Below are positions 11,964 to 28,919 of a stretch of DNA of 57,972 nt, one piece after another. A program made the position numbers and the translations under genes. Position 1 is the first letter of the stretch, and each line of letters begins with the position of its first letter. Below the pieces are notes generated by a model. The model did not search any database. It was given only the letters and a program-made list of their open reading frames with translations, and was not told the DNA's origin. The stretch is from a virus. The stretch lies in IMG/VR virus record IMGVR_UViG_3300031227_000047, positions 1-57,972 of that record, one strand, 5' to 3'.

Positions 11964-12458
11964 ATGACAGATTCACAGTTTCAGGATTTTATAGGATTAG
12001 TAAGAGAAAGAGCTTCTCAATTCAAAAGAAAAGTTTGTGGATTGGAATTTGAGGATTTGGAACAAGAAGGCTGGTTATTATTCATACACAAAGTGCTTCC
12101 AAATTTTGATGAAGCAAACGATACCAAACTTTCAACCTATTTTTATTCAGCACTCACTCACAAATTTATGTCTCTCACTAGTTATCATTCAAGGCGGATT
12201 TGTGAAGCTTTAAATCCAGCCATAGCAGCCCCGGTTGAAAAGCTAAGTATCTATCTGAGATTGGAACTTTCAGAAAAATCCTTGGAAGTTATTCATCTTT
12301 TGCTAGAGGAAAGCGTAGAATTGTATGGGGAAGGAATAAAGGAAATTCCAAAGCCAACTTTGGGTTTGATAAGAAATGCTTTGAGAAATCGAGGATGGAC
12401 ACATAAAGATATTGCAAGTTCATTCAAAGAAATAAAAGGAGCTTTAGCTTCATTGTGA
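11964..12458 (+). CDS. RNA polymerase sigma-factor-like protein
   Basis: 164 residues. The N-terminal half resembles sigma region 2: EFEDLEQEGWLLFIHKVLPN followed by KLSTYFYSALTHKFMSL, where the FEDLEQEGW helix and the aromatic YFY segment are typical. The C-terminal part ends in a helix-turn-helix-like stretch (NALRNRGWTHKDIASSF) like region 4. Compact two-region sigma-like proteins occur in phages and direct host polymerase to phage promoters. The thrice-repeated promoters still look like host sigma-70 sites, so its targets may be others, such as the structural operon. Its last ten codons lie in a 31-bp repeat. Confidence 0.6.
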   Translation: MTDSQFQDFIGLVRERASQFKRKVCGLEFEDLEQEGWLLFIHKVLPNFDEANDTKLSTYFYSALTHKFMSLTSYHSRRICEALNPAIAAPVEKLSIYLRLELSEKSLEVIHLLLEESVELYGEGIKEIPKPTLGLIRNALRNRGWTHKDIASSFKEIKGALASL

Positions 12459-12459
12459 A
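12429..12459 (+). repeat. 31-bp direct repeat, left copy
   Basis: Identical to 13112-13142. It encodes EIKGALASL and the stop of the upstream gene, and also contains the ribosome site AAAGGAG and the GTG start of the next gene. The two copies bracket one complete gene. Confidence 0.9.
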
Positions 12460-13141
12460 ATTTAATAAAGAATCAGACATGGCGGCCCCTGTAATCGCGC
12501 TCATGGAGGCGGAGGGCTGGGATGTATATCAGGAAGTACAGGCATGGGAGCACGGCCCCGTGTGCGACCTTGTAGGCCGTATGGGGGATTTGATCTGGTG
12601 TGTCGAAATGAAACTATCACTATCGCTCGCCTTGCTCGAGCAAGCATACGCATGGAAGCGGAGAGCCAGTTATGTTTCGATTGCCGTGCCGCTGAAAAAG
12701 TCTTTTCAGAAAAGACGTTTTGTGCATCAATTATGTAACGACTACGGGATAGGCATTATCTTAGCCAGGCCACATGTAGCATCTATAGAAGAGCCTGCTC
12801 TGTTGAATCGAACGCCGTGGACTGGAAGTTTCAAAAGCAGATTATGTGAGGATCACAAAACGTTTGCTGTGGCGGGCAATGCGGAGGGAGCTCGATATTC
12901 GCCATTTCAAAAAACTAAGCATGCCCTGATTGAGATTGTTATAAACAGTCCAGGCATTACAATGAAAGCCGCGGTTGAAACAATTTCGCACCATTATGTC
13001 AATGACCAATCGGCGAGATCTTCGCTTGCACATTGGATAAATGCTGGCAAGATTAAGGGCATACGCGCTGAGGGCAAGCCGTTACGGCTTTACTATGAAG
13101 AACCAGGAGGGGAAATAAAAGGAGCTTTAGCTTCATTGTGA
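12455..13141 (+). CDS. PD-(D/E)XK nuclease-like protein with C-terminal winged helix
   Basis: 228 residues. Residues 5-75 have the order ESDMAAPVIALMEAEGWDVYQEV ... CDLVGRMGD ... CVEMKLS, matching a restriction-fold core in which the D of CDLV and the E and K of EMK would be catalytic; this resembles the DUF2161-type putative phosphodiesterases. Residues about 150-225 look like a winged helix (ALIEIVINSPGITMKAAVE, then AHWINAGKIKGIRAEGKP). The gene is clearly GC-richer than its neighbours and ends with the same nine residues as the upstream sigma-like gene because of the 31-bp repeats. It overlaps and is coupled to the methyltransferase, so a restriction partner is possible, but a recombination nuclease is equally open. 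Confidence 0.6.
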   Translation: MKFNKESDMAAPVIALMEAEGWDVYQEVQAWEHGPVCDLVGRMGDLIWCVEMKLSLSLALLEQAYAWKRRASYVSIAVPLKKSFQKRRFVHQLCNDYGIGIILARPHVASIEEPALLNRTPWTGSFKSRLCEDHKTFAVAGNAEGARYSPFQKTKHALIEIVINSPGITMKAAVETISHHYVNDQSARSSLAHWINAGKIKGIRAEGKPLRLYYEEPGGEIKGALASL

Positions 13142-13142
13142 A
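13112..13142 (+). repeat. 31-bp direct repeat, right copy
   Basis: Second copy of the repeat at 12429. It provides the stop of the nuclease-like gene and the ribosome site and GTG start of the methyltransferase, preserving the same GTGA overlap. Confidence 0.9.
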
Positions 13143-13984
13143 TAAGAAAGATTTGAAAAGACAAATAAAAACAGCTCATTTTTTTGCTGGAGGTGGAGGT
13201 GGGATTCTTGCTTCTGAAATATTGGGTCATGAATCTGTGCTCGCTGTCGAAATAAATCAAAGGCGTTGTGCTATTTTAGAGGAACGTAAGTCTGAGGGTT
13301 GGTTTAAAAGCTTGGAGGTTGAATGCTGTGATATCAGAGAGTTTGACAACGAACAATGGAAAGGAAAAGTGGATTGCATCTCAGCGGGATTCCCTTGCCA
13401 GGATATTTCATCTGCCGGTTCGGGCACGGGAATTAAAGGGGAACAATCAGGGCTCGTATTCGATTTGCTCAAATCAATTGCCATTATTCAACCTGGGATT
13501 GTGTTCCTCGAAAACAGTCCCAATATCAGAACCAGAGGGCGTGATGTTGTCATCGGTGAACTCATGGCGCTTGGATATTCCTGGCGCGACGGAATGCTTG
13601 CAGCCGCTCATGTCGGCACGGGCCATCTCCGCAATCGCTGGTGGTGCCTTGCTGTTAACACTTCTGGCAAGCGATGCCTCCAGGAGTCCAAATCTATTCT
13701 CGAAAGAGCGCAATATAAATCTAGTAAAGGAGTTGTTGATCCTAAAATATTGTTTAGCCAACAACTTACGCACGCCATCGAGAGGGGGGGGATTGTCACG
13801 AGACGACACAGAAATTATTAGAGATGGGGCTATCTACACAGGGCGTTTCGGCTGGTCACCGCCTGACGCCGGCGTTTGCAGAGTGGTGGATGGGTTGGCC
13901 TCTCGGGTGGACCGGATTAAAACCTGCGGAGACGGACAAGTGCCGCTACAAGCGGCGTTAGCTTGGCTATTGTTGAGTGCATGA
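13138..13984 (+). CDS. C5-cytosine DNA methyltransferase, frame interrupted at a G8 tract
   Basis: Motifs of cytosine-5 methyltransferases appear in order: SAM-binding FAGGGGG (14-20), catalytic GFPCQD (84-89), ENSP (125-128) and RNRWW (165-169). As written, frame 1 stops at 13821 after a nonsense tail. The expected C-terminal motifs IX-X (VCRVVDGLASRVDRI ... VPLQAALAWLL) lie in the next frame, ending at 13984. Removing one G from the eight Gs at 13784-13791 joins them into a normal enzyme of about 281 residues. This may be a phase-variable switch, polymerase or ribosome slippage, or an assembly error. The 5' fifth is AT-rich and the rest GC-rich, suggesting a recombinant gene. It would protect phage DNA or mark host DNA. 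Confidence 0.8.
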
Positions 13985-23348: not shown

Positions 23349-24560
23349 GTGTTATTTTCTGAAACGGATTTATTGACTGCTACAGGTTGTCATTCATGCG
23401 GATTGTGGAGAAAGTGTTTAACTCCACGAATGAAAGTTTCTGGAAAAGGAAAGAAGAGGATCTTAATTGTTGGAGAAGCCCCGGGAGCTACCGAGGATGA
23501 CGTAGGAAAGCATTTTGTAGGGAAATCGGGTATATTACTTCGGAAGGAATTGAAACGCATACAAGTCGATTTAGAGCAAGATTGTAGAATTGTAAATGCT
23601 GTAAATTGCAGACCACCGAAAAACAGAAAAGTAACGTCAAAGGAAATCGACGCTTGTAGGTCTATGGTGTGGACTGAGATACGAAAAAACAAACCAAAAG
23701 TGGTTTTGTTATTGGGAAAATCTGCTATTGAATCAGTGATAGGGGTGAGGTGGAAAAAGGATTTAGGGGGAGTTTCCAGGTGGAGAGGGCTGGCAATTCC
23801 TGATAAAGAAGTTGGGGGTTGGATTGTTTCTACTTACCATCCAGCTTTTTTGTTGAGACAAACTCAGGGATTTGGGCAAAGGGAAAAGATAAATGAAGGG
23901 CTTCTAAAAATCTTTAGAAATGATTTGGTTCATGCTGTTTCTCTTGCTTGTGGAAATAAACAGATTCCCCCTTGCACTGGGATCTTGCCAGGGATTCATG
24001 TGCTTAAAACGGAAAAAGAAGCTTTGAGATATTTGGGGGATTTGATTAGACGTAGACCTCCTTTGATTGCTTTTGATTATGAAACTACAGGATTGAAACC
24101 ATATGAGAAGAATCAGGAAATCGTATCTGTAGCTTTTTCAGAAGATGGAAGAGAAGGAACAGCTATGATGCTTTCAAAATCTTTGATTCCTCTTCTTAGA
24201 ACGATTTTAAATGATCCAAACATTGAAAAAATAGCGGCAAATTTCAAATTTGAGGATGTATGGTCGAGGGTTTTTTTGAAAACAAAAGTGAGGGGTTGGG
24301 TTTGGGATACCATGCTTGCTGCTCATGTAGAGAATAACCGGGAGAAATATACATCCTTAAGTTTTCAATCATATATTCAGTTTGGGGTTCCTGATTATGA
24401 TTCTGAGATAGTTCCACTTTTGAAATCTAAAAAAGGGAAGCTAAATCGAGTTAGAGAAATCCCGGAAACAAAGCTTCTAATGTATAATGGAATAGACGCT
24501 GTATTTGAATTTCGATTGGCCCAATGGCAGAGAAGGATGTTAGATGGATGTTATAAATGA
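23349..24560 (+). CDS. Family 4 uracil-DNA glycosylase fused to 3'-5' exonuclease domain
   Basis: 403 residues. Residues 1-200 carry C14-x2-C17, C87 and C103, the 4Fe-4S spacing of family 4 uracil-DNA glycosylases, with GEAPGATEDDVGKHFVGKSG (42-61) and HPAFLLR. Residues about 235-403 are a DnaQ/Pol I-type proofreading domain: DYETTG (about 243), the NFKFEDVW block, and YNGIDA (about 379). The polymerase domain lies in the next gene, whose start overlaps this stop by 17 bases. Glycosylase-exonuclease-polymerase as a single chain is known from SPO1-type phages; here it is split. GTG start at 23349 with AAGGA. The enzyme could couple removal or sensing of uracil to proofreading. Confidence 0.85.
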   Translation: MLFSETDLLTATGCHSCGLWRKCLTPRMKVSGKGKKRILIVGEAPGATEDDVGKHFVGKSGILLRKELKRIQVDLEQDCRIVNAVNCRPPKNRKVTSKEIDACRSMVWTEIRKNKPKVVLLLGKSAIESVIGVRWKKDLGGVSRWRGLAIPDKEVGGWIVSTYHPAFLLRQTQGFGQREKINEGLLKIFRNDLVHAVSLACGNKQIPPCTGILPGIHVLKTEKEALRYLGDLIRRRPPLIAFDYETTGLKPYEKNQEIVSVAFSEDGREGTAMMLSKSLIPLLRTILNDPNIEKIAANFKFEDVWSRVFLKTKVRGWVWDTMLAAHVENNREKYTSLSFQSYIQFGVPDYDSEIVPLLKSKKGKLNRVREIPETKLLMYNGIDAVFEFRLAQWQRRMLDGCYK

Positions 24561-25869
24561 AAGAGCTTATCAGTTATTGCATGATGGAGCTTTGGCTTTT
24601 GCTCAGGCTGAACGCACTGGGATTCGGATAGATGTTTCCTATGTGGAAAAGCAAATTAAAAGATTGGAAAAAAAAGAGGAAAATATATCTAAACGTATTT
24701 TTGAAACTAAGTCAGGAAGAGTTTGGAGACAAAAATATGGAGCAACTGCCAAGATTGGGAGTGGAGAGCAATTGAGGGAAGTATTGGCGAAATCTTTAGG
24801 GATTCGAGAAACCGGATCTATGGACAAGCAGGTTTTAGCTACTTTAAAAAATCCCTTTGTTAATATGGTTTTGAAATATCGAAAATACAGGAAAGCCAGA
24901 ACTACTTACCTCCAGAATCTCATATCAGAAACTACGAATGGAATTTTACACCCGTTTTTTAACTTGCATATTGTACCTACGTATAGATCATCCTCTAATA
25001 AGCCAAACTTTCAAAATATTCCTATAAGGGATCCTTGGGTTGCAAAAATTGTCAGAAGGGCTTTTATCCCAAGGGAAGGAAATCGTTTAGTAGAGGCTGA
25101 TTACAGTGCGATAGAGGTAAGGATTGCAGCTTGTTATCATAAAGATCCTCGAATGCTTCGTTACTTGAAAAATGGACATGATCTACATAAAGAAATGGCG
25201 ATTGAATGTTACGATTGTAAGAGAAATGAAGTTTCAAAAGAGATGCGATATTGTGCAAAAAACCGATTCGTATTTCCAATTTTTTATGGTTCGTTTTATA
25301 AGAAAATAGCACCGGCTTTATGGGATTCGATTGAAGAGTTTGATTTAAAGTTAGTGGATGGAACTCCTCTTATGAGTCATTTGAAAAAAAGAGGAATGGG
25401 ATCTTATTCTGATTTCGAGGATCATATTGAAAACGTAGAGCATTTGTTTTGGACAAGCAAGTTTAAACGGTATCATGCTTGGAAAAAGGAGTGGTATAAA
25501 GCATATTTGAAACAGGGATATTTTGATCTGAAAACAGGTTTCAGATGTGGCGGATTTATGGGAAGGAATGAAGTAATAAATTATCCAATTCAGGGAGCGG
25601 CTTTTCATTGTTTGCTTTGGACTTTTATCGAGGTTCAAAAAGAGATTAGACAAAGGAAAATGAAAACGAAACTGATAGGTCAAATTCATGATTCGATATT
25701 AGCAGATGTTCCAGAAAATGAATTTGATGATTATTTGGAATTGATTTCAAGGGTAGGATCGAAGAAAATCAGGGAAGCTTGGAAGTGGATTATTTTACCT
25801 CTTGAAATGGAAATAGAAGCTTGTGAAGTTGGTGAAAGTTGGTTTGATAAGAAGGAGGTAAAAGTATGA
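24544..25869 (+). CDS. polA: Family A DNA polymerase (polymerase domain only)
   Basis: 441 residues, the thumb-palm-fingers part of a Pol I-type enzyme. TYRSSSNKPNFQNIPIRD, motif A LVEADYSAIEVRI (about 185-197, catalytic D), the fingers motif KNRFVFPIFYGSFYKKI and motif C GQIHDS (about 378-383) are intact. It has no exonuclease of its own; that activity is in the overlapping upstream gene. A TAG immediately precedes the ATG and AGAAGGA is seven bases upstream, so this is a true separate start, not a frameshift. It is the phage replicative polymerase, and is unusual in being accompanied by clamps and a clamp loader. Confidence 0.93.
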   Translation: MDVINERAYQLLHDGALAFAQAERTGIRIDVSYVEKQIKRLEKKEENISKRIFETKSGRVWRQKYGATAKIGSGEQLREVLAKSLGIRETGSMDKQVLATLKNPFVNMVLKYRKYRKARTTYLQNLISETTNGILHPFFNLHIVPTYRSSSNKPNFQNIPIRDPWVAKIVRRAFIPREGNRLVEADYSAIEVRIAACYHKDPRMLRYLKNGHDLHKEMAIECYDCKRNEVSKEMRYCAKNRFVFPIFYGSFYKKIAPALWDSIEEFDLKLVDGTPLMSHLKKRGMGSYSDFEDHIENVEHLFWTSKFKRYHAWKKEWYKAYLKQGYFDLKTGFRCGGFMGRNEVINYPIQGAAFHCLLWTFIEVQKEIRQRKMKTKLIGQIHDSILADVPENEFDDYLELISRVGSKKIREAWKWIILPLEMEIEACEVGESWFDKKEVKV

Positions 25870-27233: not shown

Positions 27234-27415
27234 TAGACCCTCAATTTATATTTATAGGTTTTATTAGTGGGATTTTTGGAATTGCTATTGTGTTTTATTT
27301 AGTGCCGATAGTTCTACGTTTTTGGACTATGCAGATAAGTGCTGGTTGGATTTTAGGAAAGAAAGTAGAAACAGAAACAGAAAAAGGAGAAAAGAAAGAT
27401 GGGAAAGAGAAGTAA
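27230..27415 (+). CDS. Small single-span membrane protein
   Basis: 61 residues. One transmembrane helix (IFIGFISGIFGIAIVFYLVP) and a lysine/glutamate tail. Overlaps both neighbours by a few bases. Function unknown. Confidence 0.55.
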   Translation: MIDPQFIFIGFISGIFGIAIVFYLVPIVLRFWTMQISAGWILGKKVETETEKGEKKDGKEK

Positions 27416-28919
27416 AAAGAAAGCACATACAAAGTCAATGAGAGATCGTGTTCGGTCTCATGCGAAAGAGTCAAGAAGCGGCTCCAGTTGTTTGACTTTA
27501 CCAAAGGGCACAGAGGTTTTTTGGCCGGATGATAAGGGAAGGTATTTTATAAATGTCATTCCTTATCGGGTTTCAAGCGATCATCACCCGGATGGAATTG
27601 ATAAGGGTGATTTGTGGTATCGGCGTCCGTATCAATTGCATTTTATTGATCGGAAAGCTGTAGTCTGTCCAAGGTCAATTGGGAAAAAGTGTCCTATTTG
27701 TGAAGAGGTGGATCGCCTATCACGGGATTTTGAAACAAACAAAGAAGTCATTCAACCAATTCGAGCAAAGAAAATGTGCTTGTTCAATATCATCGATGCG
27801 GATGATAAGAAAAAGACAATCAGAGTTTTTGATTGGTCTGCTTACAAATTTGCTGCTGATTTGGAACAGGAGTTGGATGAAGGTGAACTTGAAAATTGTG
27901 GCTTTGCGGATCTAACGGATGGATCTACTGTCCGATTCCGTGTTACTGAGGATTCCTTTGCTGGACACAAGTTTTTGAAAACGACTCGGATTGATTTCAT
28001 TGAAAGAGAGGATTATCCAGAGTCGATTTTGGATGATGTTGTGGATTTGGACACAGTTTTGAAAGTTATGTCCTATAAGGAAATCAAGAAGCTTTTCTTT
28101 GATATGGAAGAAGATGACGGTGATGAAGATGAAACCCCGAAAAGTAAAAAGGGGAAAAAGGTTGAAGAAGAGGAAGAAGATTTCGATGAAGATGAAGAGG
28201 AAGAGGAAGAGGAAGAGGATGAAGAGGAAGAGGAAGAGGCTCCGAAAAGTAAAAAGAGAAAGAAGGTAAAAAAAGAAGAAGAAGAAGAAGAGGAGAATGA
28301 AGATCTTGATTCTGATTTCGATGAGGATGAGGATGAGGATGAGGATGAGGATGAGGATGAGGATGAGGATGAGGATGATGGTGTTACAAAGCCTGAAGTT
28401 TCCCTTCCCGATGTGGATGAAATTTCTAGCATGAAGAAAAAAGGGATCTTGGAATTGTTGGTTGAAAGTGGAAAAGAGATGGGAAGCACCAAGCGAATCA
28501 AGATGCTCCAGAAAATGAAAGTAAAGGAGCTTAGAGCTTACGTTACAGAGTTATTGGAAGATGATGATGATGATGATGATGATGGGGATCTTGATTCTGA
28601 TTTCGACGATGACGACGATGATCTGGAAGAAGAAGGGGCTGGTTTTGGTAAAAAAGATGATGATGAAGAGGATGATGATTTTACCGAAGAGGAAACACAT
28701 CTTCCCGATGCAGATGATATCAAGATGATGAAGAAAAAAGAGATCTTGGAATTGTTAAAGCTAAAAAGAGAGTTGGGAAATTACAAAAAACCTAAAGATC
28801 TTCAGAAAATGAAAGTAAAGGAGCTTAGGGCTTACGTCATAGAGTTGTTGGAAGAAGAAGAAGATGAAGATGAAGATCTTGATTCTCATTTCGACGACGA
28901 TGATGATGACGATGAATAG
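27399..28919 (+). CDS. ssDNA-binding protein (gp32-like) with acidic tail and two SAP-like repeats
   Basis: 506 residues. Residues about 30-230 resemble the T4 gp32-type OB fold with its zinc site: CPRSIGKKCPICEEV (about 89-103) and an aromatic, basic first half. A long Asp/Glu tail follows. Embedded in the tail are two related 50-residue helical units, about 335-386 (MKKKGILELL ... KMKVKELRAYVTELL) and about 434-484 (MKKKEILELL ... KMKVKELRAYVIELL), each like a SAP-type helix-extension-helix. T4 gp32 is about 300 residues and has one short acidic tail, so this is a large elaboration. It precedes the recombinase gene, as expected for the replication/recombination SSB. Confidence 0.75.
   Translation: MGKRSKKKAHTKSMRDRVRSHAKESRSGSSCLTLPKGTEVFWPDDKGRYFINVIPYRVSSDHHPDGIDKGDLWYRRPYQLHFIDRKAVVCPRSIGKKCPICEEVDRLSRDFETNKEVIQPIRAKKMCLFNIIDADDKKKTIRVFDWSAYKFAADLEQELDEGELENCGFADLTDGSTVRFRVTEDSFAGHKFLKTTRIDFIEREDYPESILDDVVDLDTVLKVMSYKEIKKLFFDMEEDDGDEDETPKSKKGKKVEEEEEDFDEDEEEEEEEEDEEEEEEAPKSKKRKKVKKEEEEEEENEDLDSDFDEDEDEDEDEDEDEDEDEDDGVTKPEVSLPDVDEISSMKKKGILELLVESGKEMGSTKRIKMLQKMKVKELRAYVTELLEDDDDDDDDGDLDSDFDDDDDDLEEEGAGFGKKDDDEEDDDFTEEETHLPDADDIKMMKKKEILELLKLKRELGNYKKPKDLQKMKVKELRAYVIELLEEEEDEDEDLDSHFDDDDDDDE
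28320..28376 (+). repeat. Hexanucleotide microsatellite (GATGAG)n in SSB tail
   Basis: About nine tandem GATGAG units encoding alternating Asp-Glu. Slippage would alter tail length in steps of two residues without a frame change. Confidence 0.85.

Follow-up and report, generated by a model that had tools for sequence, protein, structure and literature searches.

The window, which is the whole 57,972-base stretch of a virus record, carries a C5-methyltransferase locus in which the same bases are read in two overlapping frames of the plus strand, here called alpha (the catalytic frame) and beta (+1 relative to alpha). A run of eight G residues interrupts both. The features of the locus are listed by position.

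12455..13141, plus strand: gene immediately before alpha, function unknown (phrog_12193), sharing 4 bases with the start of alpha.
13138..13821, plus strand: N-terminal part of alpha as deposited, 227 aa from a GTG start, with C5-methyltransferase motifs I–VIII (PF00145, E 7e-30).
13319..13984, plus strand: open frame of the eight-G sequence, a chimera of the beta N-terminus and the alpha C-terminus, with motif X present and motif IX absent.
13328..13783, plus strand: N-terminal part of beta, +1 relative to alpha; WIASQRDSLARIF matches the beta family.
13784..13791, plus strand: G8 homopolymer, letters GGGGGGGG, one G above the register that leaves the two overlapping frames intact.
13792..13961, plus strand: C-terminal part of beta, ending ...HRLTPAFAEWWMGWPLGWTGLKPAETDKCRYKRR, out of frame with the beta N-terminal part as deposited.
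13792..13984, plus strand: C-terminal part of alpha including motif X, out of frame with 13138 as deposited; aligns with VCRVVDGLANRMDRIKCAGNGQVPLQAA of relatives.
13819..13826, plus strand: TAG-AG-ATG, the stop of truncated alpha followed two bases on by an ATG in the beta frame.
13881..13910, plus strand: motif IX-like core of beta, EWWMGWPLGW.
13928..13945, plus strand: motif X of alpha, GDGQVP, from the sequence.

Read from GTG 13138, the deposited eight-G sequence meets a stop at 13821 after 227 aa, between motif VIII and motif X, whereas seven Gs give 281 aa with the C-terminal end ...VCRVVDGLASRVDRIKTCGDGQVPLQAALAWLLLSA and a stop at 13984 (deposited coordinates). The preliminary description had placed the run and worked out both stops correctly, and its claim that the reading frame of a C5-methyltransferase depends on the tract is borne out by these two readings. 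The seven-G reading makes both frames whole, with beta extending from about 13328 to a stop at 13959–13961, and only in this reading is the motif IX-like EWWMGWPLGW continuous with the beta N-terminus. Seven-G alpha matches phrog_363 (E 4e-51), and seven-G beta matches phrog_26627 (E 7e-9) and phrog_1008 (E 1e-5). Translation of beta likely begins at GTG 13328, which stands behind a GGAGG at 13314–13318 with a 9-nt spacer. With eight Gs both frames are broken; the front half of beta runs into the alpha ending (13319–13984), and motif IX is absent from both the alpha and the beta-front products. A frameshift that would seem to damage one gene here breaks two. The eight-G form had also been said to lose the C-terminal motifs of the methyltransferase, which is true of motif X, lost from the catalytic frame, and not of motif IX, which never lay in that frame: window alpha lacks it in the seven-G reading too. 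Nine Gs were considered as an alternative full form and rejected, as they join the alpha N-terminal part to the beta ending without motif X and leave the enzyme incomplete. Apart from the extra G, neither frame contains a lesion.

The two-frame arrangement was examined in methyltransferase relatives from 80 viral loci, with tests on 49 dereplicated loci and an intactness count on the 79 loci with motif X (window included). In the relatives, the +1 frame is open over nearly the whole gene, usually for 170–400 codons, and ends in a block like LNPxWVEWLMGFPIGWTDLK, the same bases reading VGRVADGVANRVDRLKALGNGQVP in the catalytic frame. When the synonymous codons of the catalytic frame were redrawn across the 49 loci, 246 stops were expected in the +1 frame and 39 were observed; the +2 frame had 695 stops against 632 expected. 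An LMGFP-like motif IX block occurs in the +1 frame of 44 of the 49 loci (0.08 expected), and no xMGFP-like motif IX was found in the last 130 aa of alpha in any of the 49 dereplicated proteins. Synonymous sites are under strong constraint, with many fourfold positions almost invariant (CCT 95%, GTG 98% and GCC 100% among them). One stretch of DNA holds two overlapping frames on the same strand, both of them conserved. A single gene with an optional C-terminus, as first proposed for the window, was rejected on the conservation of the +1 frame across the whole gene; the locus consists instead of two overlapping genes that are broken together.

The catalytic frame is whole in 75 of the 79 loci, window included. 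Each of the four broken copies, namely the window and three contigs with G9 tracts, breaks at a G run, and with the window set aside the family has few frameshifts (3 of the other 78 loci). The two-frame methyltransferase occurs widely among phages and prophages: it accounts for nearly all of the 79 loci and is also present in Escherichia coli prophages and in named phages of Acinetobacter and Salmonella. Four annotated records, those of an E. coli prophage, two cultured phages and an environmental phage, contain both frames, but their annotation covers the catalytic frame only. In the E. coli prophage methyltransferase (L213:2991-3752), which is labelled a pseudogene for its internal stop, overlapping stops interrupt the two frames at a single spot. 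Among Streptomyces-type relatives (L102–L119), the catalytic frame is often short (about 170–270 aa), motif X was not found there, and a long +1 frame carries EWLMGLP; in these relatives the enzyme may be divided otherwise than in the phage type.

C5-methyltransferases need conserved motifs I–X, with motif IX sitting with the target recognition region. M.EcoHK31I (YGGCCR) is described as two polypeptides, the larger with motifs I–VIII and X and the smaller alone with motif IX (PMC3404938, which refers to Lee, Kam and Shaw 1995). The beta polypeptide of M.EcoHK31I is encoded within its alpha gene but in a different frame, and the second polypeptide of the phage locus likewise lies in an overlapping frame. 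The window locus resembles it in having motifs I–VIII and X in the larger subunit and motif IX in a second polypeptide, and differs in being phage-borne and in having a G run, common to both frames, that breaks both subunits. Motifs I–VIII and X lie together in the seven-G reading and in 75 of the 79 loci, and the deposited eight-G sequence has motif X out of frame. M.AquI has motifs I–VIII in one subunit and IX–X in the other (PMC3404938); it is likewise a split C5-methyltransferase, and the window locus differs by keeping motif X with I–VIII.

Beta may serve as the second subunit, a role suggested by its motif IX and by the parallel with M.EcoHK31I. A search of Pfam gave no match for beta, and a profile search found no relative in the PDB. 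Its AlphaFold model was poor (pLDDT 59), too weak for a fold search. The family phrog_1008, annotated as DNA methyltransferase, was matched by 33 of the 34 aligned beta members. In PHROG, phrog_363 (alpha) and phrog_1008 (beta) are separate families that both bear the label DNA methyltransferase, whereas here a single stretch of DNA holds both, each in its own frame.

The G8 run at 13784–13791 is the sole run of at least seven G or C in the window. Dinucleotide shuffles of the window gave a mean of 0.95 runs of G8 or longer, with at least one in 58% of shuffles. Its existence is unremarkable because shuffles often produce a G8 somewhere in the window; what is notable is its position and its effect on two overlapping frames. 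At the run, the same bases spell R-G-G-L in alpha and R-G-G-D in beta, and relatives aligned across it read RGGLS or QGGLS, in register. Since GGG alone encodes Gly in both frames, a glycine pair in each produces a pure G run and therefore a slip-prone site. From the genetic code and the alignments, we infer that double coding accounts for the run without selection for instability. Glycine pairs that are read twice would explain simply why G runs prone to slippage arise in genes of this kind. Runs of at least eight G or C number 4 in 46 kb of this gene and 5 in 452 kb of flanks. Selection for long runs in the gene was considered and rejected: they are commoner than in the flanks but hardly above the dinucleotide expectation (4 versus 2.5), and selection for run instability is not supported.

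A homologous tract (CAA-Gn-...ATGATACGCAAGGA) was found in several lineages of other phages, three of which are only 57–63% identical to each other in DNA. Its lengths and consequences were:

G10, both frames whole, the length seen in the three lineages of 57–63% identity: L043, L065/L066/L068/L069, L183-L185 and L209.
G9, alpha front joined to the beta end: L059, L061 and L063, from three metagenomes.
G8, alpha truncated and the front of beta joined to the alpha end, as in the window: L187, which shares its contig with L212, from one metagenome.

In the G10 tracts, alpha reads QGGG and beta KGG or KGGG, so the double-glycine argument applies to them too. All three registers of the homologous tract exist among deposited sequences. 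Within each sampled lineage, tract length is uniform, being G9 in three contigs from three metagenomes and G10 in identical contigs from four metagenomes; the window's own lineage is represented by one sequence. The locus has the repeat-tract property of a phase-variable gene, in that the length of a tract within the reading frame sets the frame, and several tract lengths (G8, G9, G10) occur at one site in related genomes, namely at the homologous tract of other phages. The phase variation suggested in the preliminary description, which might give a mixed population of methylating and non-methylating particles, gains in part from this length variation and loses from the uniformity within each lineage. 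It had also named frame-fixed relatives without a homopolymer as evidence against switching, and these were found in part: the closest relative found (L002, 58% identical) has both frames intact and no run, and other lineages keep their tracts. Searches by methyltransferase DNA, tract pattern and the neighbouring primase found no close relative of the phage. Two further G runs were seen in related genes. A G19 run, extreme in length, lies in a methyltransferase-like gene of Actinacidiphila acididurans (L123:3376-3394), with a second frame downstream bearing an EWLMGLPAGW block, and a G10 run lies early in a related double-frame methyltransferase on a planctomycete chromosome (L101:3240-3249).

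Late changes of G-run length that switch a C-terminal sequence are known from Helicobacter canadensis, in which poly-G tracts give C-terminal phase variation in bacterial genes, with length variation at read level (PMC2823697). In the window, a single run is shared by two overlapping genes that are both conserved, and the ending in either frame is a methyltransferase motif that is itself conserved. Among the papers searched, none dealt with phase-variable phage C5-methyltransferases or with overlapping phage methyltransferase frames.

Based on these findings, we lean towards a model in which the window locus specifies an M.EcoHK31I-type cytosine-5 DNA methyltransferase made of two polypeptides and the eight Gs are a real OFF allele made by slippage. 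Alpha, the catalytic polypeptide with motifs I–VIII and X, and beta, the +1 polypeptide with the motif IX-like block, would both be produced from one stretch of DNA on the same strand. The G run lies in the variable region, at a point where both frames read glycine-glycine, double coding itself producing the slip-prone site. Eight Gs, presumably the true state of the genome, would put the allele one base out of register: alpha would stop before motif X, beta would acquire the wrong ending, and no complete enzyme would be expected. The same slippage could revert the OFF allele, making the tract a contingency-like locus that switches both subunits at once. If such switching is real, it would represent a phage contingency locus acting on DNA modification.

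The main rival account, which we consider less likely, is that the extra G is an assembly or sequencing error; the true phage sequence would then contain seven Gs, its two-subunit methyltransferase would be intact, and a homopolymer miscall or an amplification slip would have supplied the eighth. The sequence comes from a single contig, removal of one G makes both frames whole at once, relatives are in register at the site (RGGLS or QGGLS), and frameshifts are rare elsewhere in the family, all of which fit an error. However, the same contig has six A8/T8 runs, every one of them within a frame that stays open, and out-of-register lengths recur at the homologous tract, G9 in three metagenomes and G8 in one. 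Together with the otherwise undamaged alpha and beta frames, the A8/T8 runs argue against a generally indel-prone assembly, and general indel errors in the contig were rejected.

Two further accounts take the eight Gs as genuine and explain them differently from an OFF allele. The eight-G form could be functional, with transcriptional slippage or ribosomal frameshifting restoring some full-length alpha and beta, or with the pieces reassembling (alpha I–VIII, the beta-N/alpha-C product that carries motif X, and a peptide with motif IX made by re-initiation at 13824). A G_GGG_GGG slip site inside the run in the alpha frame would suit the former, and the TAG-AG-ATG stop/start at 13819–13826, in the motif IX frame, the latter; re-initiation there might conceivably yield a 45-aa motif IX peptide. 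The plain intact frames of L002, which has no run, indicate that slippage is no conserved requirement, and we consider this account improbable. It is about equally improbable that the gene is simply decaying, a recently acquired methyltransferase on its way to being lost, with the extra G as its first lesion and no role in switching. A G+C content of 48% in the gene against 39% in the window is what recent acquisition would give, and the run is no longer than chance allows, but neither frame has any other lesion, and other lineages repeatedly show out-of-register forms whose halves are otherwise intact.

Returning to the slippage-made OFF allele, the registers of the homologous tract would permit a broader and less likely extension, which we put forward only tentatively: that phages carry a three-position contingency switch inside the double-coded gene. 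One register would give both subunits, another the catalytic half with a motif IX ending, and the third a cut alpha together with beta bearing a motif X ending. If true, one slip would alter two overlapping proteins and could turn methylation off or change its specificity within a phage population.

The region from 12455 to 13984, comprising the upstream gene and the methyltransferase, has a G+C content of about 48%, above the 39% of the window and the 38% of the next gene, which suggests an acquired cassette. A homologue of the upstream gene precedes the methyltransferase in L005 (41% over 213 aa), and the upstream gene is a possible operon partner. Its product has a D...ExK-like stretch (DLVGRMGDLIWCVEMK), which could be a nuclease core, possibly that of a restriction or resolvase partner.

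Elsewhere in the window, positions 23349–25869 read by eye as one gene with a uracil-DNA glycosylase-like part and, after it, an exonuclease-like part, and a polymerase-like gene starts inside its last 17 bases; together these may be a DNA polymerase I in the form of two coupled genes. A protein encoded at 27399–28919 carries very long acidic repeats (D/E runs) over its C-terminal two thirds, of unusual length.
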